In this document: piece by piece, positions 5,635-40,842 of the stretch
How positions within the stretch are numbered: position 1 is the first letter of the stretch
Layout of the letters: each line of letters starts with the position of its first letter
Source of the DNA: Diadophis punctatus similis
Taxonomy: Eukaryota > Chordata > Lepidosauria > Squamata > Dipsadidae
NCBI GenBank assembly: GCA_023053685.1
Contig: JALIGW010000061.1
Span: 886,001 to 950,000, forward strand
Direction: 5' to 3'
DNA: 64,000 bases
Translations under genes and position numbers: made by a program
Notes under the pieces: generated by a model
Told to the model about the DNA's origin: nothing
What the model saw: the letters and a program-made list of their open reading frames with translations, nothing else
Databases searched by the model: none

Positions 5635-5721
5635 TAAGGTGACCAGACGTCCCGATTTTGGCGGGACAGTCCCGGTTTTGGCCCATTTGTCCCGCGTCCC
5701 GCTTCGTTTTGAAAAAGTCCC

Positions 5722-7395: not shown

Positions 7396-7451
7396 CTTTA
7401 TTGGCCAAGTGTGATTGGACACACAAGGAATTTGTCTTGGTGCATATGCAT
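7396..7451 (-). mobile_element. 3' end of a Snake1-like CR1/L3 LINE
   Basis: The sequence tctttattggccaagtgtg, attggacacacaagg and aatttgtcttggtgcatatg next to (GAATA)n is the familiar 3' terminus of snake CR1/L3 elements that seed AATAG microsatellites. Only about 55 bases of the element remain. It lies just before the transposase remnant. The family name is from memory. Confidence 0.6.
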
Positions 7452-7799: not shown

Positions 7800-8014
7800 A
7801 ATAATACTATACATACTTTTTTTAATGTATTATATTTGTAAATTGTACTTAGGTTGAAATTAAAAAAATATATATTGCAATACTATTTTTGCATTCTATG
7901 AAAATTATTGTTGGTCTATATAGACCAAATTTTTAATCAGGAACCCACCCCCCGTCAGGAACCCCCCCCCCGGTCAATGGTGTCCCTCTTTACCAATGTT
8001 AAAATCTGGTCACC

Positions 8015-14069: not shown

Positions 14070-14432
14070 TGTTGAAACGTAAAAAAGTTCCGCAGCCCCC
14101 CTTTCTGGAGAGGCTGTAAATTAGAGGTAAATGAACCGTGTATTCTCATGGCTGCTAACTCTTAAAAAAATAATCCCGAGGTATAAATGCTAATAAACAT
14201 TTTTATTATAAAAGTACAAAAGATATTGATTACATCTTACCGGACAGAAAAATATGTCAGCCGGACAAAGGAAAGAAAGTAAGAGAACAATGGAATACTA
14301 ATGATATGCGCAGTAGCTCATACATCACAAGGTAGTAAATCACAAGACACTTTGAGATAAGAAGTCTCTGACTACCGTAGTATTCAGAGTCGATGCTCAG
14401 CTCAGCTGGCAAACACAAATAATGTAGTGACA
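14070..14432 (-). repeat. Copia 1 3' LTR
   Basis: Starts TGTTGAAACG and ends GTAGTGACA on the plus strand. The purine-rich tract on the minus strand next to it (AAGAAGGGG, 14,434-14,444) is the likely plus-strand primer. Confidence 0.9.
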
Positions 14433-14549
14433 AACCCCTTCTTCGTCAGTTGAGCGGACATTAGGTAATCAATGAAGGCACATCATCTCACACAAATACT
14501 CGTGCTGAGCTGCTGGAAGCGGTTTGTTGAGCATATCAGCAATCTGGTC

Positions 14550-15425
14550 TCATGTAGGCACATACTGTAATTTTACAAAACCTCGTTTCACTAATTGTTT
14601 AATATTCTTATAACGAATGTCAATGTGTCTGGACCTGGAACCTGTGAAATGCGATTCAGAAATATAAACCACCGATTCGTTGTCTTCCATCACTGTGATT
14701 GGTCGGATCGGGTGTGTCCAGATATCTGTGACTAAATCATCAAACCAAGTTAGAGAATTACATGCATCAGAAACACAAGCATATTCAGCTTCAGTAGATG
14801 AACAAGAAACAAAATTCTGTTTACGCACTTGCCAGTAAACAGGACATCCATTTAAGAACATCATATAACCTGAAGTACTTTTACGTGATTTCTTATCACT
14901 TGCCCAATCAGAATCAGCATAATAACATAATTCTACATGATTAGTATGTGTTGGTTCTAACAATAACTTCATATGTTTAGTGTGTTTTAGATATTTCAAT
15001 AATTTCTTAACACATGTCCAATGAAACTGTTTTGCCTTACCTACATGTCGTGACAAGATTAACAGTAAGTGCAATGTCGGGTCTGGTCCAACTACTAATA
15101 TATAACAGTGACCCAATAACTGAACGATAAAGTGTCTGATCCTCGAATTCAGGACCGGATTCATGTGTCAAGTTGTGAAAATCTGTTTGCATAGGTATGC
15201 GTCCTGTGTTAGCATCTTTCATGTTGCAATGATGCAAAAGTTGTTCAATTTTATCCTCTTGTGAAAGACTGAACCCCTTCTGTGTTTTTGCAATCTGAAC
15301 ACCTAAATACGTGTTAATGTGACCTAAAGATTTCAGTGTAAAATACCTCTGTAAGCCTTTAGTAAACCTCTCACTCTTTTGCTTATTTGGACCAATATAA
15401 ACAATATCATCAACATAAACAAGAA
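14550..15425 (-). pseudogene. Copia 1 RNase H and RT C terminus
   Basis: RNase H motifs: YADSDWASDKKSRKSTSGYM, FLNGCPVYWQVRKQ, SCSSTEAEYACVSDA, MEDNESVVYISESHFTGSRS and RHIDIRYKNIKQLV. Upstream, in other frames, come the RT site YVDDIVYIGPN (about 15,380-15,410) and YLGVQIAKTQKGFSLSQE. Frameshifts near 15,060 and 15,430 separate three pieces. A stop within the tail (about 14,550) also removes the last residues. Confidence 0.9.
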
Positions 15426-16634
15426 TTATCTCTCATGTGTCATCAGATCTTTTTGTAAACACTCATTCATCAGTGTCAGATTAATAAAGCCCATTGAATT
15501 TAGTTTGTCAGTAAGACATAAATACCACATTAAACCAGACTGTTTCAGACCATAAAGACTTTTGTGCAGAAACCAGGTATCCCCTTCTTGCTGTTGAAAT
15601 CCTGGAGGACCTTTAACGTAGATCTCCTCATCCAGGTCAGCATTTAGATAAGTCGTGTCAACATCGAACTGGAAAGCTTCTAAACCAAGAATAGTAGCAG
15701 TAGCTAAAGCAATTTTTACGCTTTCAGTCCTTACTGTGGGTGAGTAAGTATTTGTGTAGTCCTCAGGATATCTTTGAGCGAAACCCTGAGCTACAAGTCT
15801 GGCTTTGTACAATGACTCACCATTCAGCTTCTTTTTGATTCTGTAGACCCATCGAGTGCCGATGACTTTTTTGTTTGCTGGAGGTTTTGCAGGCGTAAAC
15901 ACCTTAAGTTTATTTAGACTGTCCATTTCAGCCTGCATTGCATCATACCACTTCTCCTGCTCTGAATCATGAAGATGTTTGATTTGTGTGAATGTATCAG
16001 GAGGAAGTGTAACATTACAAATCAAAGGCAAGGGTGCTTTTGTTAGTTGCCACGAATACCTCTGTGGAGGAATCCCTTTTGTGGCCCTCTTGGAACGCCT
16101 CGGAACAGTTGTCCAATCGTCTTCTGTGTCGTCCTCGTCGTCATCCTCGTCGCTAGCATCAGCATCCGCGGATTGCGAAGACTGAACATCAGGTTGGGAA
16201 GAACTAGTGGATGGAACATCTGCCTGTGAATCTCGGTCATCAGGCTGCGCGGCATCAGCAGCAGCATCTCTAGGAAAATAAACTCCAGGATCATTGGAAT
16301 GAATCCTGGACCAGTCAGCATCTTCTTCAAAATTGGCAGATTGAGAAATCACTATTACATGATTAGAGTCAATGAATTTGCTCCATTTTGAATTGTCATC
16401 AATACCCATAAATCTCAGCCTCTTTGCTACTGGACCTGCTTTTCTTCTTTGAGCTAAGGGAATGTTCACCATAGCGTATGAACCAAAAATATGGAGATTC
16501 TTGAGGTCTGGTTTGTGACCATACAACATGAAGAAAGGAGTCTGATTTATTACACTACTCCATGTGCGGTTGACAATGTAATTTGCATACTTAATAGCTT
16601 CACCCCAGTATGGATTACTAAGGTTGGCGTCTTC
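15426..16634 (-). pseudogene. Copia 1 integrase C terminus and RT N-terminal half
   Basis: Codons include WGEAIKYANYIVN and MLYGHKPDLKNLHIFGSYAM (integrase C-terminal part), an acidic linker (DASDEDDDEDDTEDDW), then RT: MDSLNKLKVFTPAKPPANKK, VIGTRWVYRIKKKLNGE, YKARLVAQGFAQRYPEDYTN, FQFDVDTTYLNADLDEEIYV and LYGLKQSGLMWY. A frameshift near 15,430 precedes the YVDD codons. The integrase is cut at 16,635 by copia 2. Confidence 0.9.
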
Positions 16635-16639
16635 TAGGA

Positions 16640-16974
16640 TGTCACGATGTGAATATTGCCAGTTGTGCAGATCTACTTTTTCTTGTATTTATGGTCATGC
16701 AGACATGTGATATATTTTACTACGCATGCGTGCATTCCAGGAGTTTTTGTTAACTCCCATTCCTTCTTTCTCTTTCTCCATTTTCTGCTGAAGGCAGACG
16801 TGATTTTCATTAGCCGATAAGATGTAGCTTATTAAGGATCTATTTTATTACTTTTGTACTGAAATAAATATTTTGTTAATTAGATTTGAATCTCGGTTTT
16901 ATTTTCTAATGAGAATGACTTCAAAAGAAGCAAGATCCACAGATCGCCTCTACGGGGGAATGCCCCCCCTAACA
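16640..16974 (+). repeat. Copia 2 5' LTR
   Basis: TGTCACGATG to CCCTAACA. It contains the paired-purine-free AT-rich stretch with aataaa near 16,862, a possible polyadenylation signal. Confidence 0.92.
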
Positions 16975-16990
16975 TGGTATCAGAGATGGC
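16975..16990 (+). other. Copia 2 primer binding site
   Basis: tggtatcagagatggc lies directly after the LTR, the classic Ty1/copia site related to the 3' end of initiator tRNA-Met, with two differences from the perfect sites of copia 1 and 3. Confidence 0.8.
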
Positions 16991-17068
16991 TGTAAAATTT
17001 ATAGCTTTCTTTGAAGGTCTTCTTGCGTTTTAGGACAGTTAGCTAATTAGAGTGATTTATAACTAGCC

Positions 17069-17764
17069 ATGTCCTCCACGAACGGAGATAAGCTGGAAAC
17101 AGAAAAAAATCTTCAGCATGAAGCCCTGGAAACAGAAGCAACCTCTTTTGCAGACAACTCTAATCTGCAAGAAATGACACCACCTCTTTTTGGGACTCAA
17201 ACAGAAGATATTGCCGGGGCATCTTCACAAGCGGAACAGGATTTATTTACAGAGGTTAGTAAAAGTTACCCAACCACATCGTTCGTCCCTGGGGGAAATT
17301 CTACACGTTTAGGAGCTATTCCAAAAATCTCTCAAGCTAATGCCCCACAAGATGAGGAGGCATCCTTCTATAGGCAGCAAATTGCCAGCCCACAAACGTC
17401 TTCCATAGGGCAGACAAGTGCTTAAAGAGAAATAAATTTAACTTATGGCCAGACGCTGCAGAGGCAGCAAGCTCAGATTAAGCATTTGCAAAAAGAATTA
17501 CAGGAGGCTAGACTGTATGCATTTTTCTGTGTTGAAAAGCAAGATGTCCACCCGCCTTCAGGCATTCCAGAGCGGGGCCATGATCCCCCCTCCTTTCCTT
17601 CTTTAAACAACTTAGAACAACGCCCTTGGATGGGCGCGTCACAATTACGTGGGCTGGAACTTTTTCATGAAAGGGACTTTGCATTTCCCAAAAGTAATGC
17701 TGCACTGCCATCTAGTGGCGACAAAAGGGTTTTTTTTTCTCCAAGTAATTCAGGAACAGAATGA
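17069..17764 (+). pseudogene. Copia 2 gag, N-terminal part
   Basis: ATG 17,069 opens 118 codons (MSSTNGDKLETEKNLQ). A TAA ends the frame at 17,425, after which the same frame continues open to 17,764 (QLRGLELFHERDFAFPKSNA). It corresponds to the start of copia 3 gag (EQRDFPKSNVAVPSSG). A frameshift near 17,740 moves coding into the next frame. Confidence 0.75.
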
Positions 17765-20700
17765 AACTTTGCATAAACAGAATGAATCCTTGCATAAACA
17801 GAATGAAAGTTTAAATGAACAATTAAAAATATTGCAGGCTCAGAACAGAATGACTCACTTGAGGCTTGATACATTAATGCTTCGTCCATCATTAGCTGCA
17901 CAACCTTTACAGGCACAAATTGTCCCGCCTGCCCAACCTATGCAAGCACAAATTGTGCATCCACCGCAAGCTGGACCACCTCCTACTCCAGCACCAGGGG
18001 CCCAACCTGTGCCTGCTCAAGGGCCACCACCAGCTGTGGCAGCCCAACTTTTGCCTGCTCCAACACCACCACCTATTGCTGCCCCTCAGCAACAGCCAAT
18101 CCAGGCAGCTCCGCCTGCTCAGGCCCAAGCCTTGCCACAAGTGATTTCACAGGCCACACCAGTGCAGGCCACGCCTCACTTACAACTGCCATCTAGACGA
18201 TCCTACGAACGAACCTACGCACCAAGGGTACTAAGATGCCAATATTGCGACCGTGTGGGCCATACAAGCAGAGATTGTATTCAATTGCAACGCACTCAAG
18301 TTCCTGTCCAGCCCAGAGGAACAGACTACAGACGCCAGTACCAGCCCAGAGGAACAAACTACAGACGCCAGTACCAGCCCAGAGGAACAGCACCCAGAGG
18401 CAGCAGAGGCAGAGGACAGCGCCGACCCGGTCCCAGGCGTGATTTCCCACCTCCATACACCATGCTAGCAATCACCCATGATACACAGCCAAAACAATAC
18501 GACCGGTCTCTTTTGTGGACTCTCGATAGTGGAGCGGCTGTTCACATTACTTACAGAAAAGAACTTTTCAAAGAGCTACATGAGCCTGAACCAGAATATC
18601 GTGAACTGTACGCATTTGGTGGCCACCCCTTCAAAGTTGAAGGAAAAGGGACTGTTTTTATTGAAGAGTTAGGTACCCTAGTACCTGATGTTTATTATAT
18701 TCCTACAGCTAATTGTAATTTGCTTAGTCAGAATCATTTATCTGCTGTTTTACATTTTTATGTCCTTCATTTAGGTAACGCCAGTTATATTTTTAAAGAT
18801 GGTCATATTATTGCTGACACAATTGTGATTGGTCAGGTCTACTATTTGAGGCCAAAGGCAGAACCTCAAATTCAGGCAAGTATAAAAATCTCAATAGAGA
18901 ATATCACAGGCCCAGAGAGAGATACCCCAGAGAGAGATCCTGTGAATACTCCAAAGGCTCCTAAAGCCACAAAGCAACAGGTAATCAAACCCAAGGTTCC
19001 TCATGATAATGTTAATGCTGCAACCTCACTTACAGGTTTTCGTTTACATGACAGGTGTATACATAGATGGCACAGAAGATTAGGGCATCCCAGTTTTGAG
19101 GTTCTTAAAAAGATGCCATTTTTCGCACAAGGTTCGAATTTCAAAGGATGTAAGGTACATTTGGATTGTGCTGTTTGCAAAAAGGCAAAATCGAGGGCAG
19201 CAGCCGTTCCAAAACATGCTATATGTAAGTCAACACGCATTTTTGATTTGGTTCATACTGATATTGTGGGCCCTTATGGTCCAACTATTGGCGGTAAAAA
19301 GTATTTCTTAACTATTGTTGATAATCATTCTAGATATGGTTATGCCTTTCTTATGAAAGAAAAATCTGAAACCTTTCAGACCTTTAGAGATTTTGCAGTC
19401 CAAATCTACAATCAACACGGAGTGAGGATCCGGAGAATCCAGAGTGATCGTGGTGCCGAGTTCACGTCTCAGCGTTTCCAGGATTGGATGCGACGAAACG
19501 GTATCCTACACCAAACATCTGCCCCTTTCACGCCGGCTCACAACGGAGTGGCAGAGAGACGACAGGGGGTCCTCCAAACCATGATGCGCTGCCTCCTAGA
19601 AGATGCCAATCTCAAACACTCATTTTGGGGCGAAGCAGTTAAGTATGCAAATTACATTGTCAATCATACATGGAGCAGTGTCATTGACCAAACACCCTTC
19701 TACATGTTATATGGCTGCCAGCCAGATCTTAGACACTTACACATTTTTGGTTCATATGCCATGGTCAATATTCCATTGGCCCAAAGAAGAAAAGGTGGCC
19801 CAGTAGCAAAGAGACTGAGATATATGGGTGTTGATAGCAATTCTAAATGGGGAAGATTCATTGACCGTCACAATACGATAACAAGTTCTAATTCAGCTAA
19901 TTTTGAAGAAGATACAGATTGGTCCAGGATACATTCTAATGACCCTGGAGTTTATTTCCCTAGAACTGAAATTGTTGATACAGTGCAACCAGATGACCAA
20001 CGTTCATCACCTGATATCCCATCCTACCACGCCGTGGATGCTGAAGCTAGTGACGCTGATGGAGATGTGGACAACAAGAAAGACGACTGGACAATCGTCC
20101 CGAGACGTTCCAAGAGAACTACAAAAGGTATTCCACCAAAGAGATACACAATGCAATTGACAAACACACCATCGCCATTGATCTGTAATGTTACACTCCC
20201 ACCAGAGAACTTTTCACAAATTAAATATCTTTCTGAAGATGAACAACAAAAATGGTATGAAGCCATGCAAGTTGAGATGGACAGTTTGCAGAAACTCAAA
20301 GTATACACATCTGCAACACCTCCAACACACAAAAAAGTCATTGGCACAAGATGGGTCTACAAAATCAAACAAAAGCCAGATGGTGAATTATTATACAAAG
20401 CAAGACTTGTCGCACAGGGTTTCGCACAAAGCTATCCTGAAAATTACACAAACACTTACTCACCTACAGTGCGAACTGAAAGTGTGAAAATTGCTCTAAC
20501 CACTGCTTCTATCCTTGGACTTGAAGTTTTCCAATTTGATGTTGAAACAGCTTATCTACATGCTGATCTAGATGAAGAAATCTACGTCAGGTCCGCTCCC
20601 GGCTTCCGGGACCAAGAAGAGGATACCTGGTTCCTAAACAAGAGTCTCTATAGTCTGAAACAATCAGGTCTGATGTGGTACACATGTCTAAAAGACAAAC

Positions 20701-21737
20701 TAAATTTAATGGGCTTTATTAAGTCCGACACTGATGAATGCGTGTTCACAAAAAGGTATGGAAATATTAATGAAATTGTTCTTGTTTATGTTGATGACAT
20801 TGTTTACATTGGTCCAAACAAACACATGAGTGAGAATTTTGTTAAAGGTTTGCAAAAATACTTCACATTGAAATCATTAGGACACATCAATGAATATTTA
20901 GGAGTCCACATTGAAAAGACACAGAAGGGGTTTAGCCTTTCACAAGAAGCTAAGATAGATCAACTTTTGCATCATTGCAACATGACAGATGCAACGCCTA
21001 CACAAACACCTATGCAAACTGATTTTCACAATTTGAAGGATGCATACAGTCCTGAGTTCAAGGATCAAACACTTTATCGTTCAGTAATTGGTTCACTACT
21101 TTACATTAGTGGATGGACTAGACCAGACATAGCACTTAGTGTTAATTTACTTCCAAGACATGTAGGCAAAGCAACAGAGTTTCACTGGTCATGTATTAAG
21201 AAGTTATTGAGATACTTGATACACACAAAACACTTCAAATTGAAGCTAGAACCAGAACATACAGATTTTGCTGACATGTATTGTTATGCAGATGCAGATT
21301 GGGCAAGTGATAAGGAGTCAAGAAAAAGCACATCAGGTTACATAGTGTTCCTGAATGGATGTCCAGTTTACTGGAACGTAAGAAAACAAAGTTTTATTTC
21401 CTGCTCATCAACTGAAGCAGAGTATGCATGTGTGTCTGATGCGTGTAACTTTTTAACGTGGTTCGATTCCTTAGTTACAGATATCTGGACGAAGCCAGAA
21501 AAACCGATCACTGTGATGGAAGATAATTAATCAGTAGTTTACATTTCCAGGACTCACTTCACAGGTTCAAGGTCCAGACACATTGACATTCGTTACAAGA
21601 ATGTTAGAGAGTCAGTAAGACAAGGTCTCATAAAGTTAGAATATGTGCCAACAAAATATCAGATAGCTGACATTCTGAACAAACCATTACCTATTGCTCA
21701 GCATAATTACCTCAGATATTTACTGTGTGTTGAGTGA
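17740..21737 (+). CDS. Copia 2 gag-pol polyprotein (protease, integrase, RT, RNase H)
   Basis: The open frame runs to a TAA at 21,528-21,530. In order: a Gln/Asn coiled segment, a Pro/Gln/Ala-rich linker (about 17,900-18,190), zinc knuckle CQYCDRVGHTSRDC, protease LLWTLDSGAAVH, integrase HRWHRRLGHPSF with CAVCKKAK (HHCC), DIVGPYGPTIGGKKYF, IQSDRGAEFTS and TPAHNGVAERRQG; then RT with YVDDIVYIG and RNase H YADADWASDKESRKSTSGYI. The gag core found in copia 3 between linker and knuckle is deleted. The TAA replaces a Gln codon in EDNxSVVYIS; coding homology continues to TGA 21,735-21,737. Confidence 0.9.
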
Positions 21738-21760
21738 CACATTATATTAGCCCAACTGAC

Positions 21761-21770
21761 AAAGAAGGGG
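21761..21770 (+). other. Copia 2 polypurine tract
   Basis: aaagaagggg directly before the 3' LTR, where plus-strand DNA synthesis starts. Confidence 0.75.
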
Positions 21771-22105
21771 TGTCACGATGTGAATATTGCCAGTTGTGCA
21801 GATCTACTGTTTCTTGTATTTATGGTCAAGCAGACATGTGATATATTTTACTACGCATGCGTGCATTCCAGGAGTTTTTGTTAACTCCCATTCCTTCTTT
21901 CTCTTTCTGCATTTTCTGCCGAAGGCAGACGTGATTTTCATTAGCCAATAAGATGTAGCTTATTAAGGATCTATTTTATTACTTTTGTACTGAAATAAAT
22001 ATTTTGTTAATTAGATTTGAATCTCGGTTTTATTTTCTAATGAGAATGACTTCAAAAGAAGCAAGATCCACAGATCGCCTCTACGGGGGAATGCCCCCCT
22101 TAACA
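21771..22105 (+). repeat. Copia 2 3' LTR
   Basis: Near-identical to 16,640-16,974; single-base differences include ctacttt/ctactgt and agccgat/agccaat. Confidence 0.92.
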
Positions 22106-23630
22106 TAGGAGACAACACATCATGGTTTGCAGGACCCCTTGCCGTCGCTCTGAAACTCCGTTATGAGCAGGTGTGTAAGGGGCTGAGGTCTGATGCAGAA
22201 TTCCATTCCTACGCATCCAGTCCTGGAAACGCTGAGGCATGAATTCAGCACCTCGATCACTTTGAATTCTGGTGATGCTCACTCCGTGTTGTTTATAAAC
22301 GAGGACGGCAAAGTCTTTAAAGATCTGAAAGGTCTCTGATTTTTCTTTCATAGGATATCCATATCCATATCTAGAATAATTATCAACAATTGTTAGAAAA
22401 TATTTTCTGCCACCAAGTGTTGGCTGTTTGAATGGACCTACTATGTCAGTGTGTACCAATTCAAATATGCGTGTTGACAGGCATGTAGCGTGTTTTGGAA
22501 TGGCTGCTGCTTTGGATTTGGCCTTTTTGCAGACGGCACAATCCAAAAACACCTTACACCCCTTTAGATCCAAACCTTTTGCGAACTCTGGCATTTTCCA
22601 AAGAACACGGAAACTGGCATGTCCCAATCTTCTATGCCACTTATGGATACACCTGTAATGCAAAGGATTACCAGTTAGTGAATTTTCAACATCAACAGTA
22701 GTATGAGGAACCTCAGGCTTGCTCTGAGCAACCTGTTTCACAATTTTCCCTTTGTTGGCTTTAGGAGCCTTTGGAGCCTTTGGAGTAGCAACAGGATCTC
22801 TCACTGGGACATCTCTCTCTGGGCCTGTGCTCTCCTTTGGAGTTTGAATACTTGCCTGTGCTTGCGTTTTAGGCTTTGGCTTTAAGTAATAAACACCACC
22901 AATTAACATGGTTTCAGCAACAATATCTCCATCTTTAAATATATAACTTGCTTTCTCAAGGTGGTGAACCTGGAACTTTAATACTCTAGACAAGTGAGCC
23001 TGACTAAGCAAGCTGCTATTTGGTATGTAATAAACATCAGGAATGTATGCATCGAGCTCTTCAATGTAAACAGTTCCTTTTCCTCTGACCTGACAAGGAT
23101 GATTGGAAAAAGAATACAGTTCACGAAGTTCAGTTTCAGGATTGTGCATCTCTGTGAACAATTCTTTTCTAAAAGTCACATGCAAAGCTGCACCACTGTC
23201 CAAAGTCCACAAAAGTTGTCTGTCGTATTCAGGACACGGTTGTGGATCATTGGTTAAAGCCAATGTTGCGAGTGGAGCTTGTGGATCACGCCTGGGACCA
23301 CGACGGCCTTGTCTTCCACCTCTGCCTCTGCCTCCTCTGGAATCTGTTCCTCTGGGCTGGTACTGGACGGGAGCTGAAAGTCGTTGGGGACAATCCCGGG
23401 TGGCATGTCCCACACGATTACAGACGTAGCATCTTGGCATCCTTGGAATGTAGGCTCTTCCTCAGAAGGTGCGCCTCGCTGGAACTCTTGATGCGGGTGG
23501 TCCTCTCAAATGTGGCATGGCAAGCATGAATGCTTCTTCTTCTGTTAAAATTCTGCATACATGATCCACTGTGCATTGAGCAATTGGCACTTGATTAATC
23601 TTTGTAATGGCATCTTTCCATACATAATTC
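22106..23630 (-). pseudogene. Copia 1 zinc knuckle, protease and integrase
   Basis: Minus-strand order: ALPxLRGPP, then CYVCNRVGHATRDC (CCHC knuckle), an RG-rich stretch (RGGRGRGGRQGRRGPRR), protease LLWTLDSGAALHV, then integrase HKWHRRLGHASF with CAVCKKAKSKAAA, VHTDIVGPFKQP, IQSDRGAEFMPQRFQDWMRR and TPAHNGVSERRQG. It ends where copia 2 inserted and resumes at 16,634. The 446-codon frame (22,100-23,440) is intact; upstream gag codons are in another frame. Confidence 0.9.
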
Positions 23631-23636
23631 AATGAG

Positions 23637-24200
<564 letters not shown>

Positions 24201-25050
24201 TCATCAATAACATAGCCTCTTTCGCCCAAATCCTTCCTCATTCCTTTCATCTTAGTTAAATGTTCTCCAATATATTCACCAGTCTTTAATTTTGAACCAT
24301 GAAAATCAGACAAAAGCAAACATGTAGATTCAATTGAAACAGCCCGGTAGCATGTTTCCAATTGGGCCCAAATTTGTTGGGCAGTTGCATCAGGTGGAAA
24401 TGTAACCTGTAATTCAGTGTCCATAGACATCAATAATGTTGTGCTTGCTTTAGTATCAAAATCTCTTATGGCAGGAGACCATGGCTGGGCAGGAGGGTTA
24501 AAAACCATGGAATGGGTACCTTCTCTTCGAAGTAATAGACCAGTCTCACTGACCCATGCTTGATAATTCTGTCCTGAACGCTTTAATTTTGAATCACCAG
24601 CCAGTGGAACAATAGAAGGTGTCTGTTGAGGAATGTACACCTGAGGTACTGGCTGTGGAGGTAAAGGCGCTTGTGCAGGCACTTGTGGTTGCAGCTGGGG
24701 TTTCTGTACGTGAACCTGTGGTTGTTGTACTGTGTGTGTCACTGGTGCATGAGCTGCTATATGACTCTGGCCTGCTGCAGTAACAGGCACCTGCCTTTGC
24801 TGCATTAAGCGGTGACCTGCCCCATCTACGTTAGGAATTTGGCTAAAATAGTCATCTACACCACCAGGGGATGCTAATGATTGAGCCTATGGAGACACGT
24901 GTGGCATTGCAGCCTGCAGACTTTCTTGGGTTAATGAAAAGGTTGAAAAACCTCTCTGTAAAGTTTCAAAATGTTTCTGCAATTCTGTGGAATGCATTAT
25001 TGATTTTTTGCCAGCAGATGGTGCTGCAACATTAGTTTCAGGCATTGCAT
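24201..25050 (-). pseudogene. Copia 1 gag core and proline-rich linker
   Basis: The core contains KLKRSGQNYQAWVSETGLLL, RREGTHSMVFNPPAQPWSPA, IWAQLETCYRAVSIESTCLL and HLTKMKGMRKDLGERGY, the Ty1/copia gag (UBN2-type) pattern. It is preceded by a Gln/Pro/Val-rich linker (24,600-24,790) and, after a stop at about 24,886, by FYAMPETNVAAPSAGKKS. The same order occurs in copia 3, with a longer Pro/Ala linker there. Confidence 0.85.
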
Positions 25051-25067
25051 AAAACCTTTCTCCTCTT

Positions 25068-25457
25068 GGAAAAACAACATCCAAAAAATATACAATATTT
25101 AATACTACATATTACAACTGCGGCAAGAATAACATATGCACAATATTGGAAAGACAATCAAATCCCACCAGAAAATATACTAATGGACAAAATATATAGA
25201 TGTGCCGAAATGGACATGCTGACTATTCAACTCAAAGGACAATGCGACTCAGAATACTACAAAACATGGACTAGATGGTACAACTGGACTAAAAAAAAGA
25301 GGAAAGACTGTGTGACAACGTGAGAAGAAAACAAAGACAGAAAAGATTGTAAATTTATGATTTAATGTGCATAATTGAGATATAACAAATGTTGTAAAAA
25401 CGGGTGTAGATCTGTATCAAAATATTCAGATGTTTAATGAAGAAAAATAATAAAAAA

Positions 25458-25487
<30 letters not shown>
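25068..25487 (+). mobile_element. Short L1 insertion with poly(A) tail
   Basis: A 5'-truncated L1 of 420 bases: ORF2 C terminus (ILHITTAARITYAQYWKDNQ, CAEMDMLTIQLKGQCDSEYY, KTWTRWYNWTKKK), 3' UTR, and an uninterrupted A tract of nearly 30. A perfect 17-bp TSD aaaacctttctcctctt lies at 25,051-25,067 and 25,488-25,504. The long tail and perfect TSD mark it as recent. It lies in copia 1 gag. Confidence 0.95.
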
Positions 25488-25496
<9 letters not shown>

Positions 25497-25504
25497 CTCC
25501 TCTT

Positions 25505-25784
25505 TCAGAACTCAGTGAAGGGACATCACGAGACATAGGAAGTGACGTGTATCCCTCCTGAGGGTGTGGCTGTGGCCTCGAGGGAGAAGTAATGGAGGCT
25601 GTGCTGTGCCCATCTGGCTGAAGCTTAGAAAAAACCTCTTTCGCTTTTTGCAGTTCACTTTCCATAAAAGTAATTTTCTCATGATAACTCCGTATTACAG
25701 CATTCCATGCAGATTCTGCAGGGTTTACTGGAGAAGGCATTTGCTCTCTCTCTCTGAGAATATCATCTCTCTCTCTCTCTAAGG
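25505..25784 (-). pseudogene. Copia 1 gag, second N-terminal segment
   Basis: Codons include NAVIRSYHEKITFMESELQK and AKEVFSKLQPDGHS, a coiled-coil-like stretch, preceded by a run of LERERDDILREREQ. It continues at 30,353 once the hAT is removed. Confidence 0.75.
25777..25784. repeat. SPIN-like hAT target duplication, left copy
   Basis: ctctaagg here and at 30,345-30,352: a perfect 8-bp TSD. Confidence 0.92.
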
Positions 25785-26516
25785 CAGTGGTTCCCAACCT
25801 GGGGGTCGGGACCCCTTTGGGGGTCGAACGACCATTTCCCAGGGGTCGCCCTGGCATCCTCAGCTCCCCCCCACTGCCACAAGCCTGGCCATATTAGCTC
25901 AACTCGCCCAAGCCCTCCGATTGGTCGGGAGAGGTGCCATTCGGTGAGAGGTGTTTGTGACGCCTGGTGGCTGAGCTAAGGGGCGGGGCGTCGCAAGATT
26001 GCGCGCTGGAGAGTACAAGGCGTTGCTTAAGACATCTGTGGCCGCCCCTGTCTCCTGCTCACAGCGGCAGTTTCTTCCCGCTGGTGTCGAAGGGAAAGGG
26101 AGTCATGGGAGGAAACGGCCAGCCAACGACCACTTAAGTTTCACAGCGCACGATGGCGGGAAGGAGGACAGCTGGGTCGGAATCGTCTGTCTGCCCTCTC
26201 GCCCTCGGCTGGCGCGGAGACCCAGCAAACAAAGAGGCAAACAGGGAGGGAGGGAAGTGTTGTGACCCAGCACCGCAACCCCCAGAAACACACACACACA
26301 ATCGTTGGGAGGCAAACAAAAAGGTTCCTTTTACTAATAAAGTTTCTTAGCAAAACTCAGAGGTGTTAGAAGTCCAAAACAACACAAACGGAAAGTCTCA
26401 AGGAATAAGGTTCTTTGGGTTACTTGAGGGTTAAATAGCACACAGACAAAAGTTCAAAGCAAGACTCATTAATTCTTCTCTTATCTGAACAGATAAGAGA
26501 TCATGACAACTGCCCC

Positions 26517-27389
26517 TCCTTGTTCCTTGAGGGAGAAAAACTGACTCCCTCGGACCGGGTCCGCAACTTGGGGGTCCTCCTAGATCCACAGCTAAAATTG
26601 GACCATCATCTTTCTGCTGTGGCTAGGGGGGCCTTTGCACAGGTTCGCCTGGTGCACCAGTTGCGGCCATATTTGGAGAAGGAGGCTCTACTCACGGTCA
26701 CTCATGCCCTTGTCACCTCTCGTTTGGACTACTGCAATGCGCTCTACATGGGGCTACCCTTGAAGAGTATCCGGAGACTTCAGTTGGTGCAAAATGCGGC
26801 TGCGCGTGCTGTGGTGGGTGTGCCAAGGTACACCCACGTGACATCGATACTCCGCCAGCTGCATTGGTTGCCCATCGGTCTCCGGGTCCAATTCAAGGTG
26901 TTGATCACCATCTTTAAAGCCCTTCATGGCTTAGGACCAGGTTATCTACGGGACCGCATTCTGCCTCATACTTCCCTCCGACCGGTTAGGGCCCACAGAG
27001 TTGGCCTCCTCCAGGTCCCGTCGGCCAAGCAATGCCGGCTGGCGGGCCCAAGGGGGAGAGCCTTCTCTGTGGCTGGCCCCGCTCTCTGGAACCAACTTCC
27101 ACCAGAGACCCGAACTATCCCCACTCTGCTGGCCTTCCGAAAAGCCGTTAAGACATGGCTCTTCCTGCAGGCGGGGGGTAGAGCTTAATTCACTCGAGCT
27201 CACCCCCCAAGTATGTATGATGTTGAATGGTTGTTGACTTCTTATATTGTGTTTTAATTTTTATATTGTTTTAATTACTATTTTAGATTTTGGTTGTTCT
27301 TGTATTTTTCACTGATGTACGCCGCCCTGAGTCCTTAGGGAGTTGGGCGGCATATAAGAATTCCAAAATAAATAAATAAATAAATAACA
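26517..27389 (+). mobile_element. 5'-truncated L2 LINE within the solo LTR
   Basis: Starts at codons EGEKLTPSDRVRNLGVLLDP and ends with the L2 3' terminus (gccgccctgagtccttaggg, gagttgggcggcatataag) and (AAAT)n. It lacks the RT active site. L2 copies at 34,621, 46,766, 50,008 and 59,104 are close relatives. Confidence 0.9.
26520..27188 (+). pseudogene. L2 RT C-terminal region
   Basis: 222 open codons: HQLRPYLEKEALLTVTHALV, RLDYCNALYMGLPLKSIRRL, QLHWLPIGLRVQFKVL, GPGYLRDRILPHTSLRPVR and AFSVAGPALWNQLPPETRTI. These are the thumb and C-terminal domain of L2/Maui-like polymerases. Confidence 0.9.
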
Positions 27390-27569
27390 ACTTGGCTGGC
27401 TTCCCGGAATAAAGCTGGCAGAAGCTGGTGTCTTCGATAAGATTCCCAAACAAACGTAGAACTGAAACTCTGGATATGCCGTGGTCATTGATTCGTTGTT
27501 CTCAGCAGTGAGCACTAATTACCCCGGCCTAATATAGGCACTGAAGGGCGTGGCCCAATTAGCCCTCAC

Positions 27570-27842
27570 TGCTTCCTCCGATTGGACCGATGCTTACTCA
27601 GCCAATCCTGTCTTCTGGCTGCTCTGCGAGCTCTGGCATCCAGCATGGGTTCTTCATCTCCTGATGAAGCACTCTGCTGCGCAGGTGCAGAAGGTCCTGG
27701 GAGATCGTCCTGCTCTGGCACCGAGTCCTCATCACCAGCCGTCTCTGGTGCCAGGCACATGGGCTGGTACTGCTGCACCATGAGCGGCTCCACGTCCTCC
27801 GGATCCTCCAGACTCGGCGCCGGACGCGGCCAAGGCACAACA
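27570..27842 (-). CDS. Acidic coding-like segment of the second LTR
   Basis: Reads LAPETAGDEDSVPEQDDLPG, PSAPAQ, EEPMLDARARRAARRQDW. See the partner at 1,500-1,764. The upstream ATG at 27,913 lies outside the LTR in hAT sequence, so it is not the native start. Confidence 0.4.
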
Positions 27843-28463
27843 GGAAGAGAGAGACTAAGAGATATTAGCGCAGGGCTAGCCTGATCATACAGCCTCGGTG
27901 CTGAGGGCGCCACCGCCGGGGGCAGGAGGAGCTAAGCCGGAGGGAACTGGAGAAGGAGGTGGTGCCGGAGCATGGTCCATCGCCGCCGCCCTGCTCCATA
28001 TGATCAGGCTAGCCCTGTGCTAATATCTCTCAGTCTCTCTCTTCCCTCCCTCCCTGTTTGCCTCTTTCTTCACTGGCTCTCTGCGCCAGCCGAGGGCGAG
28101 AGGGCAGACAGACGAGCCCGACCCGGCTGTCCTCCTTCCCGCCGTCATGCGCTGTTAAACTTAAGTGGTTGTTGGCTGGCCGTTCCCCCCGTGACTCCCT
28201 TTCCCTTCGACACCAGCGGGAAGAAATTGCTGCTGCGAGCCCCAGCCGGCCCGGTTTGCGAGTCCCGTCTGTAGTCGGAGATGTGGGACGTGGCAAGCGA
28301 GGAGACGGGGATGCTGGAGGGGGTAGCAGGGAGTGTCTGGGCGGGAGGATTTAATAAAATATAAAATATAGTTCTTAAAGCAGAAGACATATAAACCCAA
28401 GGGGACAAATGGGTGTAAGGAAGGAGAGAGTTTGACGCTTCTCATGAATCAAATTTGCAAAGA

Positions 28464-28643
28464 ATGAAGGAGGAACAGAAGAGTTTGAAGGAATTGTCCT
28501 CCAGCCACAAAGGGGAATCTTTGAAAAGGCGGCTGGGCGAGGGGACCATAAGTGCCTTGTTGGACGTCTCACTGCAGGACCCGCGGCTGCGCTACGAGCT
28601 CATCCAGCGCATCGGCTCCAGCACTTACGGCAATGTTTACAAG
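28464..28643 (+). pseudogene. MAP4K2: MAP4K2-like first-exon fragment captured by the hAT
   Basis: The frame reads [20 protein letters not shown] followed by [10 protein letters not shown], then AAG|GTGCGC at 28,643/28,644, a good splice donor. MAP4K2 (germinal centre kinase, a MAP kinase kinase kinase kinase acting upstream of JNK) begins with almost the same residues, including DVSLQDP, and its exon stops near this Lys. The expected initiator position is ATA (28,548). The Gly-rich loop GxGxxG reads G-S-S-T-Y-G, so the second glycine is lost. The remaining kinase exons are absent. The in-frame ATG at 28,464 lies in former 5' UTR. This is a captured, decayed fragment and not a working kinase gene. 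Confidence 0.75.
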
Positions 28644-29189
28644 GTGCGCAACGGCGCGCCCGGGGTGCATGGCCGGCTTTGGAGAGGGTCCCCCCAGGCG
28701 TGCTTGGGGAGGGAAAGGCGCCACCACTGGGGCGGAGAGGAGCCGCAGAGGTGGCCGAGTGAGCAGGAAGGAAGGCAGAAGGATCCCGAGCCGCCGAAGC
28801 CCCGCCTTGCAAGCCCGCTCGGGCTCTTCCTCCGCCGCAGATAAGGACGGCCGGCAACACGATGCAGCTGCCGGTCTCCAGGAGGGAGGAGAGAGAGCAG
28901 GGGGAGGGGGTTTCTAATCGGGGGTCCCTATGACTGGCAGCAGAGGGCGCCTTTTGGAGAAGGCAAGGCGAGGGTGGGCTGGCTGGCTGGCTGGTTCCCC
29001 GGACAAGGTCGGCTCTGTGGGGCAGGCTGGCTTTGCTACAAGTGTAGGCAGGGCGGGCAGGACCCCCCCCCCCCCGCTCGCTCCGCTTTCCTGGAGTGAC
29101 TGAATAACCACAATGCGCTTATTTGTCCGGGTTGCCAGAGAGTTTGGCATGCACAGATCTTGCGGTGCTGAGGGCTAGGAGAGGGAAGA
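28644..29189. other. Probable captured intron 1 of the MAP4K2-like gene
   Basis: GC-rich sequence follows the splice donor without any further exon-like frame. It is inferred to be intronic because it directly follows GTGCGC and carries no coding pattern. How far the host cargo extends toward 30,100 is unknown. Confidence 0.4.
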
Positions 29190-29405
29190 AGAGAAAAGGG
29201 AAGGAAGGAAGGAAGGAAGGAAGGAAGGAAGGAAGGAAGGAAGGAAGGAAGACCAGAAATGGAAGGAAGGAAGGAAGGAAGGAAGGAAAGGAGAGGAAGG
29301 AGAGGAAGAAGAAGAATGTTAGGTGGGAGGGTGATAGGAAGGAAGCAAGGAAGAGAAAAAAGTGAGAGAGAGAAAGAAAAGAAAGAAAGAAAGAAAGAAG
29401 GAAAG

Positions 29406-29467
<62 letters not shown>

Positions 29468-29620
29468 GGAGGTTGGGAGGGAGGAAGGGAGGAAGAGAAA
29501 AAAGCGAGAGAGAGGGAAAGAAAAAAAGAAAGAAAGAAAGAAGAGGAAGGTTGGGAGGAAGGAAGGAAGGAAGAGAAAAAAGTGAGAGGGAAAGAAAATA
29601 AGAAAGTAAGAAAGAAAAAG
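29190..29620. repeat. (GGAA)n / (GAAA)n microsatellite block
   Basis: Long ggaa runs, then gaaa runs, with imperfect duplicates of aggttgggagggagg and agagaaaaaag. Charged frames over it are artefacts. Confidence 0.95.
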
Positions 29621-29927
29621 AGCCTTGCAAATTAAAATCGTTGTCTTTGCAGGGGTTTTGGGAAGGGTGGGTGAGCAGGCCCCACGGGGGAGGAAGGAAT
29701 ATGGGGCTGTTTTAAGAAGAAAGAGCTTAAAAGAGGAAATTGGCTTTGGGGATCCTGGCAATGTTTTTGGACCAATGGGTTTTTTTGCCCCCCGTTTGCC
29801 TCCTGAAACTTTGGAGTCCTGGGAGAAAGCTACTAAACAGGTATTACTTTGCTGGAAGCTTATCTGATTTCTAGTTTTTCGACACTGCAGGCCACAATTT
29901 CTCAACCTCAACAACTTGAATATACCT

Positions 29928-29992
29928 GGACTTCAACTCCCAAAATTCCCTAGCCAGCTTTGCTTTGAATTCTGGGAGTTGAAGTCCAGGCA
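29928..29992. repeat. Small foldback repeat (MITE-like)
   Basis: tggacttcaactcccaaaat is mirrored by attctgggagttgaagtcca around a loop of about 20 bases. The same motif occurs at 10,625 and 10,775. Confidence 0.7.
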
Positions 29993-30352
29993 CCTTAAAA
30001 GTTGCTGAGATTGAGAAATATTGCTGTACACTTGTTGGTTATCAAGTCTAAATACAGAAGTAGACTTGTGGAAGATGATATTCCTTGTGCTCTTGCAAAG
30101 ACTGGCCTGAGAATTTCTGATCTGGCATAATTACATATTGTTTTTGTGATTAATCGCTATGCTTTAATTATGTTCAATTTGTAACAATGAAAATACATCC
30201 TGCATATTATTTACATTACGATTCATAACAGTAGCAAAATTACAGTTATGAAGTAGCAACGAAAATAATTTTATGGTTGGGGGTCACCACAATATGAGGA
30301 ACTATATTAAGGGGTCGCGGCATTAGAAAGGTTGGGAACCACTGCTCTAAGG

Positions 30353-30659
30353 GAATAAACTGCTCGGCCATTAATGAACCTTTTGGCCTGGCACCAAATC
30401 TTTCATATTCCTGGGCCCCTGTAGCAATTAACTGGGTGCTCGGAGAAACATTCGTCACTGACCTCAATATGTCTTCTCCGGGACAGGCTTCTCCTCCCAT
30501 GGCACCTTCCTCTGATCTGCTTGCAGATGGTGATTGAAGAACGGAAAACCTGTTTGGCTGGGTCCCTTTGCCTTCATCGTCAGAGAGAGAAATCAGATTT
30601 ATGTTCTCTTCAACGGACTGTGCTGGTTTGGGTTTCCTCCACCCTTTCTTCTTCGGCAT
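30353..30659 (-). pseudogene. Copia 1 gag, N terminus
   Basis: Start ATG 30,659 gives MPKKKGWRKPKPAQSVEENI, NLISLSDDEGKGTQPN and later FGARPKGSLMAEQFIPLE, where the hAT interrupts it. The Lys-rich start is typical of nucleic-acid-binding gag termini. About 100 bases of leader separate it from the primer site. Confidence 0.75.
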
Positions 30660-30765
30660 ATTGTCAGCAATTAATCAGCGTTCCTCGGTGGCTGTTAATG
30701 CACTGTTTCTAATTGCCTATATGCTTATCAGTTTGAGTAACAGCCAAGAAAAAAATCAAACCAAA

Positions 30766-30776
30766 CTCTGCTACCA
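30766..30776 (-). other. Copia 1 primer binding site
   Basis: The minus strand reads TGGTAGCAGAG next to the 5' LTR: an 11-base match to the 3' end of vertebrate initiator tRNA-Met. Confidence 0.75.
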
Positions 30777-30778
30777 TA

Positions 30779-31141
30779 TGTTGAAACGTAAAAAAGTTCC
30801 GCAGCCCCCCTTTCTGGAGAGGCTGTAAATTAGAGGTAAATGAACCGTGTATTCTCATGGCTGCTAACTCTTAAAAAAAAAAACCCGAGGTATAAATGCT
30901 AATAAACACTTTTATTATAAAAGTACAAAAGATATTGATTACATCTTACCGGACAGAAAAATATGTCAGCCGGACAAAGGAAAGAAAGTAAGAGAACAAT
31001 GGAATACTAATGATATGCGCAGTAGCTCATACATCACAAGGTAGTAAATCACAAGACACTTTGAGATAAGAAGTCTCTGACTACCGTAGTATTCAGAGTC
31101 GATGCTCAGCTCAGCTGGCAAACACAAATAACGTAGTGACA
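30779..31141 (-). repeat. Copia 1 5' LTR
   Basis: Matches 14,070-14,432 with about 4 differences (for example ataatcccg/aaaaacccg, aacattttt/aacactttt, aatgtag/acgtag). Confidence 0.9.
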
Positions 31142-31164
31142 CTGTCTACGTCAGTTTGAAACGC

Positions 31165-31312
31165 CCAGATGAGCACAGGGCTTGAGAAGCAAACTTCCTT
31201 GTCGCCGTCCCTTTCGGCTCCACCTCTTGCTGCCGCCTCCCTCACTTGCTGGACTGGCTCGCCTGCTCTGGGCTGCCTTCGGCAGTGTTTTAAAACGCGC
31301 TTCTGCCTGCGC
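31165..31312. repeat. Palindrome P6, right arm
   Basis: Complement of 13,914-14,061; a GC-rich segment (31,313-31,430) and the right TIR follow. Confidence 0.85.
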
Positions 31313-33314: not shown

Positions 33315-33653
33315 TGACAGATAAGAATAACTCTCATTAGAGGCGAAATAGATCTTTTCCTGGAACTCTGACATTATAAAAGAAACCGCAGTTTAAAGTT
33401 CTAAAGTAGAAAATATTTATTTTGGTACAAAAACAATAAATTCTCATTAAATACTCATTAATCACATCTTAGCTATAAAAACAGGTTTTGCTCCTTACAG
33501 AAGCTGAAAAAGAAGGAAGGATCAAAGAAAGGAATGTACACATGCGTACTAGGAACATATTAATCACATGCTCAGGAATAAACCATTATGTTTGATAGGG
33601 ATGCATCTCCCTGCATATACATATAACAGGCAATATAAAATCACTGCCTGACA
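33315..33653 (-). repeat. Copia 3 3' LTR
   Basis: TGACAGATAAG to TGCCTGACA. The minus strand beside it holds the purine tract GACAAAGAAGGGG (33,654-33,666). Confidence 0.93.
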
Positions 33654-33687
33654 CCCCTTCTTTGTCTGTTGGATGGATATGCTTATA

Positions 33688-34620
33688 TCACTCTACACAC
33701 ATCAAATATGTTAAAGCTTCATGTCTTGCTGCAGGCAATGGCTTGTTCAGGATGTCAGCTATCTGATATTCTGTTGGCACATATTCTAACTTAATGAAAC
33801 CTTGTCTTACTAAATCTCTAACATTTTTATAACGAATGTCAATGTGTCTGGACCTAGAACCTGTGAAACGTGTTTCTGAAATGTAAACAACAGATTGATT
33901 ATCTTCCATCATGGTGATTGGCTTCTTCGGTTTGGTCCAGATATCTGTAACTAAAGAATAGAACCACGTTAACTGATTACTAGCGTCAGAAATACACGCA
34001 TATTCCGCCTCGGTTGAAGAACAGGAAACAAAACTCTGTTTTCTCACGTTCCAATGAACGAGGCATCCATTCAGGTACATTATGAAACCTGATGTGCTTT
34101 GTCTTGATTCCTTATCGCTTGCCCAGTCAGCATCTGCATAACAATACAAGTCAGCAAAATCAGAATGTGTAGGTTCTAGCTTTAATTTCATGTGTTGAGT
34201 GTATTTTAGGTATCTCAGTAACTTCTTAATACATGACCAGTGGAATTCTGTGGCTTTGCTTACATGTCGTGACAACAAATTGACACTAAGTGCTATGTCT
34301 GGTTTAGTCCAACCACTAATGTATAGTAGTGAACAAATTACTGAGCGGTAAAGTGTTTGATCCTTGAACTCAGGACTTTGTTCATCTTTCAGATTACAAA
34401 AATCTGTTTGCATAGGAGTGTATGTCCGTGTAGCATCTTGCATGTTGCAATAGTGTAGGAGTTGTTCTATCTTGGCTTGTTTGTAGAGGCTAAACCCCTT
34501 CTGTGTCTTTTCAATCTGTACACCTAAATAATCATTGATGTGACCTAGTGACTTCAATGTGAAGAATCTCTTCAGACCTGAAACAAAAATTTCACTCATG
34601 TGTTTGTTAGGACCAATGTA
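33688..34620 (-). pseudogene. Copia 3 RT C terminus and RNase H
   Basis: Continues from YVD at 35,964 after the L2: IGPNKHMSEIFVSGLKRFFT, SLGHINDYLGVQIEKTQKGF, LLYISGWTKPDIALSVNLLS; RNase H YADADWASDKESRQSTSGFI, SCSSTEAEYACISDASN, TGSRSRHIDIRYKNV and NKPLPAARHEALTYLMCVE at the stop. All blocks are open in one frame. Confidence 0.92.
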
Positions 34621-35963
34621 ATGTAATTTAATTTAATTTAATTTAATAGATTTGTATGCCGCCCAACTCCCGGGGGACTCTGGGCGGCTCACAACATGTC
34701 AAATCTATTACAGGTATAAAAACATATAACAATTTAAAAATATAAAAATTAAAAAACATCCAACATTCATAACCGGGGGGGAGACCCAAATATAGTCTAC
34801 TTGGTCTCACTTTCACCCCGCCTGCCGGAAGAGCCAGGTTTTTATTGCTTTACGGAAGGCCAGCAGGGTGGGGATGGCCCTGATCTCTGGAGGGAGTTGG
34901 TTCCATAGGGAGGGAGCTCCCACAGAGAAGGCTCTCCCCCTCGGTCCCGCCAACCGGCATTGCTTGGTCGATGGGACCTGGAGGAGACCAACTCTGTGGG
35001 ACCTAACTGGTCGTAGGGAGGTATGCGGCAGGATGCGGTCCCGAAGGTACCCTGGCCCTGAGCCATGTAGGGCTTTAAAGGTCAAAACCAACACCTTAAA
35101 TTGGGTCCGGAGACTAATGGGCAGCCAATGCAGCTGGCGGAGAATGGGTGTTACGTGGGTGTATCTAGGCACACCCACCACAGCTCGCGCAACTGCATTT
35201 TGCACCAGTTGCAGTCTCCGGATACTCTTCAAGGGTAGCCCCATGTAGAGCGCATTGCAGTAATCCAGCCGTGAGGTGATAAGGGCGTGAGTGACTGTGA
35301 GAAGTGCCTCCTTCTCCAAGTAGGGTCGCAATTGGTGCACAAGACGTACCTGTGCAAAGGTCCCCCTAGCCACAGCTGAAAGATGTCGCTCCAATTTTAG
35401 CTGTGGGTCTAGGAGGACACCCAAATTGCGGACCCGTTCTGAGGGAGTTAATTTCTCTCCCCCAAGAACCAAGGAGGGGCAATTGACAGAATCCTTGGGA
35501 GGCAATATCCATAGCCACTCGGTCTTGTCTGGGTTGAGTTTTAGCCGGTTCCTCCCCATCCAGACCCTAACATCGTCCAGGCAGCGGCACATTGCGTCAA
35601 CGGCTTCCCTGAATTGAGACGGGGTGGAGATGTACAACTGGGTATCATCAGCATACTGCTGATACCTCACCCCGTGTCGTCGGATGATCTCACCCAGTGG
35701 TTTCATGTAGATGTTAAACAGGATGGGCAAGAGGACCGAGCCCTGTGGCACCCCACAAAGTAGGGGCCTAGGGCTAGACATCTGCCCCCCTGTCAACACC
35801 GACTGCGTCCTATCAGAGAGGTAGGAGGAGAACCACTGTAGAACAGTGCCGCCCACTCCCACCTCGCCGAGACGACGCAGAAGGATACCATGGTCAATGG
35901 TATTGAAAGCCGCTGAGAGGTCAAGTAGCACCAGGATGGAGGAGTGACCACCATCCCGGGCTC
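34621..35963 (-). mobile_element. L2 LINE inserted at the copia 3 YVDD site
   Basis: The plus strand begins with aatttaatttaattt and the L2 3' end complement (tatgccgcccaactccc). The minus-strand frame (35,931-34,813) includes the L2 RT: LLDLSAAFNTIDHGILLRRL, GVPQGSVLLPILFNIYMKPL, YADDTQLYISTPSQFREAVD, MGRNRLKLNPDKTEWLW and WNQLPPEIRAIPTLLAFRKA. It splits the copia codons between YVD and D. Confidence 0.93.
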
Positions 35964-35964
35964 A

Positions 35965-37169
35965 TCTACATAAACAAGAACAATTTCATATGCATTCCCA
36001 AACCTTTTTGTAAACACGCATTCATCAGTTTCGGACTTAATAAAGCCCATTGAATTTAGTTTGTCTTTGAGACAGTTATACCACATCAAACCTGATTGTT
36101 TCAGACCATAAAGACTTTTGTTGAGAATCCACGTGTCCCCTTCTCGGCCACGGAGGTCATCACGGAATCCGGGGGCGCACTTCACGTAGATTTCTTCATC
36201 TAGGTCTGCATGTAGATAGGCAGTTTCAACATCAAATTGGAAAACTTCAAGTCCAAGAATGGAAGCTGTAGTTAAGGCTATTTTCACACTTTCAGTCCGC
36301 ACTGTAGGTGAGTAAGTGTTTGTGTAAACATCAGGATAACTTTGTGCGAAACCTTGTGCTACTAGTCTTGCTTTGTATAATGGTTCACCATCTGGTTTTT
36401 GTTTGATTTTGTACACCCATTGTGTGCCAATGACTTTCTTGTTTTTAGGAAGTGCTGCAGGTGTAAATACGTTAAGAGTCTGGAGACTGTCCATCTCAAC
36501 TTGCATGGCAGTGTGCCATTTATCTTGTTCATCTTGTGAAAGATATTTGATTTGAGCATAAGTCTCTGGTGGAAGTGTAACGTTACAGACCAATGGTGGT
36601 GGTCTGTTTGTGCAATGCAGTGTGTATTTCTTTGGAGGAATACCTTTTGTAGTTCTCTTGGAACGTCTTGGAGCGGTTGTCCAATCTTCTTCATCTTCCT
36701 CATCTCCATCATTGTCACTAGCATGAGCGTCCGCGGCAGGTGAAGATGGAATGTTAGATGAGTCATCTCTGGGAAAATAAACTCCAGGATCATTAGAATG
36801 TATTTTGGACCAATCTGAATCTTCTTCAAAGTTAGCAGAATTAGAAACTGTAATCATATTGTTAGAGTCAATGAATTTTCCCCACTTCGAATTGTCATCA
36901 ATGCCCATATATCTCAGTCTCTTAGCAATTTGACCACCTTTTCTTCTTAGCGCTAATGGAATGTTCACCATTGCATATGAACCAAAGATGTGTAGATTAG
37001 AAAGATCTGGCTGGTAGCCGTGCAGCATATAGAAAGGTGTTTGGTCAATCACACTACTCCAAGTGCGATTAACAAGGTAGTTTGCATACTTAACTGCTTC
37101 TCCCCAAAATGAATGTTTCAGATTAGCATCTTCTAGGAGGCAGCGCATCATGATTTGGAGAACCCCTTG
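35965..37169 (-). pseudogene. Copia 3 integrase C terminus and RT
   Basis: MMRCLLEDANLKHSFWGEAV, MLHGYQPDLSNLHIFGSYAM, an acidic linker, KVIGTQWVYKIKQKPDGEPL, QFDVETAYLHADLDEEIYV and LYGLKQSGLMWYNC, ending LVYVD at the L2. It is in the same frame as the upstream ORF, separated by one TGA at about 37,168. Confidence 0.93.
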
Positions 37170-40382: not shown

Positions 40383-40478
40383 TTTAGTAGATTTATGGAG
40401 TTTTCACTTCAAAACAGCCAAAAACATTGTTATCTATCTGACTGAGCTAAACGCAATAAACCTGTCAGAATTAATTAA

Positions 40479-40503
40479 GATCCAGAACCATCCTCTGCTA
40501 CCA
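40479..40503 (-). other. Copia 3 primer binding site
   Basis: The minus strand starts TGGTAGCAGAGGATGGTT directly at the LTR: 18 bases complementary to the 3' end of vertebrate initiator tRNA-Met including CCA. Confidence 0.9.
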
Positions 40504-40842
40504 TGACAGATAAGAATAACTCTCATCAGAGGCGAAATAGATCTTTTCCTGGAACTCTGACATTATAAAAGAAACCGCAGTTTAAAGTTCTAAAGTAGAA
40601 AATATTTATTTCAGTACAAAAACAATAAATTCTCATTAAATACTCATTAATCACATCTTAGCTATAAAAACAGGTCTTGCTCCTTACAGAAGCTGAAAAA
40701 GAAGGAAGGATCAAAGAAAGGAATGTACACATGCGTACTAGGAACATATTAATCACGTGCTCAGGGATAAACCAATATATTTGATAGGGATGCATCTCCC
40801 TGCATATACATATAACAGGCACTATAAAATCACTGCCTGACA
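40504..40842 (-). repeat. Copia 3 5' LTR
   Basis: Pairs with 33,315-33,653; aligns without gaps. Confidence 0.93.

Follow-up and report, generated by a model that had tools for sequence, protein, structure and literature searches.

A composite Buster-type hAT element that lies within a copia-type element and appears to carry a captured MAP4K2 first coding exon

Background

When a DNA transposon is found to enclose part of a host gene, did it take up that DNA and then move with it, or was the DNA filled in after the transposon had landed? This question is raised by positions 25785-30344 of the 64-kb stretch of DNA analysed here (the window), for which the original prediction proposed that a SPIN-like hAT transposon had captured the first exon of MAP4K2 with its splice donor and flanking DNA, and had then moved in trans into a copia-type element. 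Animal hAT elements in which, as in the present one, TIRs and a TSD enclose gene-derived non-transposon DNA have been published as Pack-TIRs, and the survey of Tan et al. (2021, PMC8277862) reports 370 Pack-TIRs in 100 animal genomes, including 208 hAT elements. The American alligator has 38 Pack-TIRs of any superfamily in that survey, so capture in an amniote, which the original prediction regarded as notable by itself, has precedents; only four multicopy Pack-TIRs are reported there. In this paper, we have examined the ends, the interior and the relative age of the element, and have weighed the ways in which it could have arisen.

Results and discussion

Ends, target site and host element

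The element is 4,560 bases long, and its boundaries and surroundings are as follows.

25785..30344, + strand: composite nonautonomous Buster-type hAT element, with 16-nt TIRs, a perfect 8-bp TSD and, at the empty site, an uninterrupted copia frame
25777..25784, no strand: left TSD copy, CTCTAAGG, fitting nnnTAnnn
30345..30352, no strand: right TSD copy, CTCTAAGG, the same letters as the left copy
25785..25800, + strand: left TIR, CAGTGGTTCCCAACCT
30329..30344, - strand: right TIR, identical to the left TIR in inverted orientation at 16/16 nt
14070..31141, - strand: copia 1, the host element, which contains further insertions; its LTRs are at 14070-14432 and 30779-31141

The two ends are identical, inverted, over their first 16 nt and diverge further in, and the TSD copies flank them exactly, as the original prediction had described. 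Inverted repeats of 16 nt with identical 8-bp flanks occur at four places across the 64-kb window, this one included, and the other three all lie within a single large palindrome near 56.6-58.8 kb, where the flanks are self-complementary; none appeared in 30 first-order Markov simulations. Excision of the element together with one copy of its TSD leaves the minus-strand gag frame of copia 1 open throughout the resulting empty site, which bears out the proposed insertion inside copia 1. The window contains three copia-type elements, namely copia 1, copia 3 (16637-22106), which is nested in copia 1, and a third at 33315-40842 with LTRs 2.7% apart (9/339).

Family assignment

Both copies of the TSD have a central TA and match nnnTAnnn, which is the TSD consensus quoted for TcBuster in PMC3499496, where SPIN is placed in the Buster family. 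Furthermore, a remnant of a transposase gene is found close to the right end.

30032..30127, + strand: C-terminal tail of a Buster/ZBED5-like hAT transposase, 32 codons, matched by P0121 and P0122 in tblastn

The 40 C-terminal residues of a read-through frame, used as the query of a protein search (four candidates, E <=10), returned two matches, P0121 (E 2e-4) and P0122 (E 9e-4), the latter being a zinc finger BED domain-containing protein 5-like protein of Clavelina lepadiformis and the former its close relative. In the reverse direction, tblastn of P0121 on the window gave E 6e-9 at 30032-30127, with 28/33 columns identical (85%), and P0122 gave E 1.8e-8 at the same place, with 27/33 columns; neither protein had any other significant match in the window. 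P0122 scores above the PF05699 cut-off and P0121 just below it (21.3 vs 21.4 bits), and the 32-aa tail alone has no Pfam or PDB match. Exact-pattern scans of genome contigs and viral contigs with the right-end sequence returned zero matches.

Two features, the match of its TSD to nnnTAnnn and the resemblance of its transposase tail to ZBED5, are shared by the element with SPIN and other Buster-group hATs and assign it on sequence grounds to the Buster-type hATs; it differs from them in that its interior is mostly foreign DNA. SPIN elements have spread in squamates, and we take the end sequences of 25785-30344 to resemble SPIN. The label 'SPIN-like' in the original prediction therefore stands at the Buster-type level, and SPIN proper is a putative assignment, suggested by the end sequences.

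Organisation of the interior

From left to right, the element consists of an end region, GC-rich DNA, an inverted duplication, the MAP4K2 piece, GGAA/AGAA repeats, a palindromic repeat, the transposase tail and the right end. The GC-rich DNA and the inverted duplication occupy 25853-28240, ahead of the MAP4K2 piece when read from the left end. The parts other than the exon are listed here.

26057..26257, + strand: inverted duplication, outer part of the left arm, which resumes at 27848-27889 beyond the solo LTR
26258..27842, + strand: solo LTR (TGTTG...CAACA) with a 5-bp TSD, GGAAG, inserted in the left arm
27848..27889, + strand: inverted duplication, inner part of the left arm
27999..28240, - strand: inverted duplication, right arm, differing from the left arm at 19/242 sites
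28644..29888, + strand: probable flanking (intron 1) DNA, so placed by position, with observed GGAA/AGAA simple repeats
29897..30019, no strand: palindromic repeat

Once the solo LTR and one copy of GGAAG are removed, an alignment of the two arms spans 242 sites and needs a single gap column, and past the arms the inverted repeat fades, the best local scores there being just 18 and 20. The solo LTR itself measures 1.6 kb; its ends are similar to 9924-9772 and 1734-1487 of the window, and within it lies a fragment of a non-LTR retrotransposon (about 26494-27389), presumably CR1/L2-like, that is similar to four other places in the window. The inverted duplication, the solo LTR, the palindromic repeat and the transposase tail, as well as the ATA start codon described below, are absent from the original prediction.

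Two further candidates in the interior were rejected. By eye, a further piece of transposase sequence had seemed to lie left of the palindromic repeat, yet in a six-frame ungapped scan that site ranked far from the top. The open frames of the GC-rich 25853-28240 were listed for a second captured exon, and none looked exon-like by eye. In Rfam, no family reached its gathering score on 25000-31200.

The MAP4K2 exon

Between the inverted duplication and the simple repeats lies the piece of host-gene DNA.

28548..28643, + strand: captured MAP4K2 first coding exon, 32 codons, with M1I, R5L, G25S and D29N relative to Thamnophis
28641..28649, + strand: exon end and putative splice donor, AAG/GTGCGC, where protein similarity falls away

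By tblastn in the window, residues 1-39 of Thamnophis MAP4K2 match with E 8.7e-12. The translation of 28548-28643 is identical to residues 1-32 of Thamnophis elegans MAP4K2 at 28/32 positions, the best value among 122 fetched proteins, followed by nine squamate sequences at 27/32, and the ranking by identity runs from snake to lizards. All 122 proteins were scored, among them P0066 and P0068, which have one extra N-terminal residue, and the partial sequences P0089, P0090 and P0092. The N-termini of squamate MAP4K2 proteins have V, I or L at one position, followed by QRIGSGTYGDVYK with small variations, and a PDB search with a 29-aa exon query placed MAP4K1 chains first (best E 5e-4). The MAP4K2 call, which had been made from the motif DVSLQDP, thus holds in the alignment, by which the homology of the exon to MAP4K2 is real.

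The similarity falls off past residue 32, where the DNA reads AAG/GTGCGC at 28641-28649, as the predicted first-exon-like frame had it. We take exon 1 of MAP4K genes to end at this break, which fits a first exon with a putative donor. Other MAP4K2 exons were not found by tblastn in the 64-kb window (next match E 0.24), which extends from the exon by about 28 kb leftwards and about 35 kb rightwards. The exon frame matched zero Pfam families, and a protein search with the 126-aa frame at 28464-28844 yielded 15 candidates, none at E <=1, a search of low power for a 32-codon exon; both outcomes are expected because the exon is so short.

Judged by its substitutions, the exon is decayed. At residue 1, ATA replaces the native ATG (M1I), and G25S hits the second glycine of the kinase GxGxxG loop, turning it into serine; together, M1I, R5L, G25S and D29N require at least five nucleotide changes. 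Among the 75 of 122 fetched proteins that fit the start pattern, G25 and D29 are each conserved in 75/75 and M1 in 71/75. R5 is demanded by this pattern and hence was not counted; it is kept in 79/82 proteins under a looser start pattern. An in-frame ATG is present upstream of the exon, at 28464. Since the start codon is gone, the exon is now most likely a decaying passenger and no working part of a gene. Moreover, copia transcripts would carry it antisense, because the exon is on the + strand and copia 1 on the - strand. The original suggestion of a mobile exon that could be exonised is weakened by both points.

Relative age and origin of the composite

We consider it likely that MAP4K2 DNA was taken up by a nonautonomous Buster-group hAT, SPIN-like in the sense given above, which subsequently moved in trans into copia 1. 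The transposase gene of this element would have been lost almost entirely, and the acquired genomic DNA would comprise the first coding exon of MAP4K2, the donor and some flanking sequence; the sequences left and right of the exon may have arrived together with it. Template switching during repair, replication or fork stalling is the likely route of this uptake, since it would explain both the inverted duplication and the adjoining foreign DNA; combined with movement by transposase supplied in trans, it corresponds to FoSTeST, an idea published for multicopy Pack-TIRs (PMC8277862). Finally, a transposase acting in trans would have carried the composite into copia 1, producing the 8-bp duplication.

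It is, on the other hand, conceivable though rather unlikely that the composite never moved, and that a plain hAT element in copia 1 suffered a later break which was repaired with MAP4K2 DNA. Gap filling of this kind, without transposition, explains most single-copy Pack-TIRs and is the main route proposed for them in animals (PMC8277862). However, 56.9% of the unique Pack-TIRs in the same survey lie within 15 kb of their parent, and no other MAP4K2 exon was found in the window. Furthermore, both the arms and the exon look older than copia 1. The arms of the inverted duplication differ at 19/242 sites (7.9%; 10/204 outside CpG), and the LTRs of copia 1 at 4/363 (1.1%; 3/343 outside CpG), the latter in agreement with the difference of about 1% given in the original prediction (Fisher p 3e-5; 0.006 outside CpG). 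The value of 1.1% is noisy, because copia 3, which is nested in copia 1 and hence younger, has LTRs 2.1% apart (7/339); with the LTRs of both elements pooled, the arms still stand out (Fisher p 1e-5; 0.003 outside CpG). The duplication would thus be older than the copia insertion if it was exact at the start, but the arms could also derive from two sequences that already differed. As for the exon, at least five changes in its 96 nt compare with 0.53 expected since the insertion of copia 1 (P 0.0002); P rises to 0.0125 if the LTR divergence is taken at its upper limit, and a threefold CpG rate on top of that brings it to 0.38, so this way of dating is soft. Taken together, these comparisons support, without proving, an assembly of the composite before it landed in copia 1, and indirectly they favour the movement as a unit in trans that had originally been proposed.

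The hAT ends need not derive from one copy, because the left side consists of an end region only and the right side includes the transposase tail, and this asymmetry would suit a macrotransposon, in which two truncated hAT copies flanked exon 1 within the MAP4K2 gene and the outer ends mobilised all that lay between. In a scan for the TIR allowing <=3 mismatches, however, the only third match was at 16190, outside the element, and no TIR copy was found in the interior of 25785-30344. The element is therefore not a pair of complete hAT copies flanking the exon, which excludes the simple form of the macrotransposon, and we regard the form with truncated copies as quite improbable. That the 32-codon match is due to chance or to another kinase, with nothing captured, is suggested by the empty Pfam and protein searches but has a negligible probability in the face of the tblastn E of 8.7e-12, the 28/32 identities, the snake-then-lizard order and the first rank of MAP4K1 in PDB.

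The preferred course of events, capture followed by movement in trans, could in principle extend beyond this one insertion: a recently active multicopy SPIN-type family of squamates might ferry the MAP4K2 first exon around the genome along with the donor and CpG-rich flank, possibly between species if it is truly SPIN. We think such a family doubtful. The 64-kb window contains one copy of the composite.

Comparison with known systems

With TIRs and a TSD around DNA derived from a host gene, 25785-30344 has the features by which Pack-TIRs are recognised, and the parent of its captured DNA has been identified at the protein level as squamate MAP4K2. As animal hATs with captured gene DNA have been published, among them the frog element hAT-N8_XT with a captured 5' UTR (PMC8277862), the element joins a known class; it is a good fresh example of a kind of capture already described in animals, and the phenomenon itself is not new. 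Compared with the Pack-TIRs presented in the survey (PMC8277862), it is distinguished by a coding first exon with a putative donor, by its Buster-type hAT ends and by its nested position in a copia element. For Ssk-FB4 of Drosophila (PMC8277862), the parent is known, several copies exist and a protein is produced, whereas the present element has a decayed single exon and one known copy. The words lizard, Anolis and reptile are absent from the main text of the survey, and in the open-licence PMC literature we found no report of a squamate coding exon in a Buster-type hAT, nor of this case under gene capture by hATs in reptiles or MAP4K2 in repeats.

What the locus adds is a composite apparently older than the recent copia element that encloses it, which would be evidence that, in an amniote, the movement of captured exons depended on transposition. 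In addition, thanks to the copia insertion the landing site can be dated and the empty site is precisely defined, which allows a comparison with relatives.

Other features of the window

A second hAT element is located at 5635-8017, with the TIR TAAGGTGACCAGA and the TSD GTCAAAAG, and encodes a hAT dimerisation tail at 7401-7799 (PF05699, E 1.7e-9). Just inside its left end is a GC-rich (0.63) inverted repeat with arms at 5739-5915 and 5999-6178. A layout with a GC-rich hairpin is thus common to 2/2 elements of the window that have a TIR >=10 nt and a perfect non-palindromic 8-bp TSD; the sequences of the two hairpins are unlike each other. The large palindrome mentioned above extends over 56304-59103, is 95.9% self-complementary over 2.8 kb and contains head-to-head copies of a LINE-like ORF; outside it, inverted similarity is also seen between 55473-56311 and 61327-60506. 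Finally, the ORF at 62606-63442 has, by eye, the look of a retroviral gag-type sequence with a zinc knuckle.
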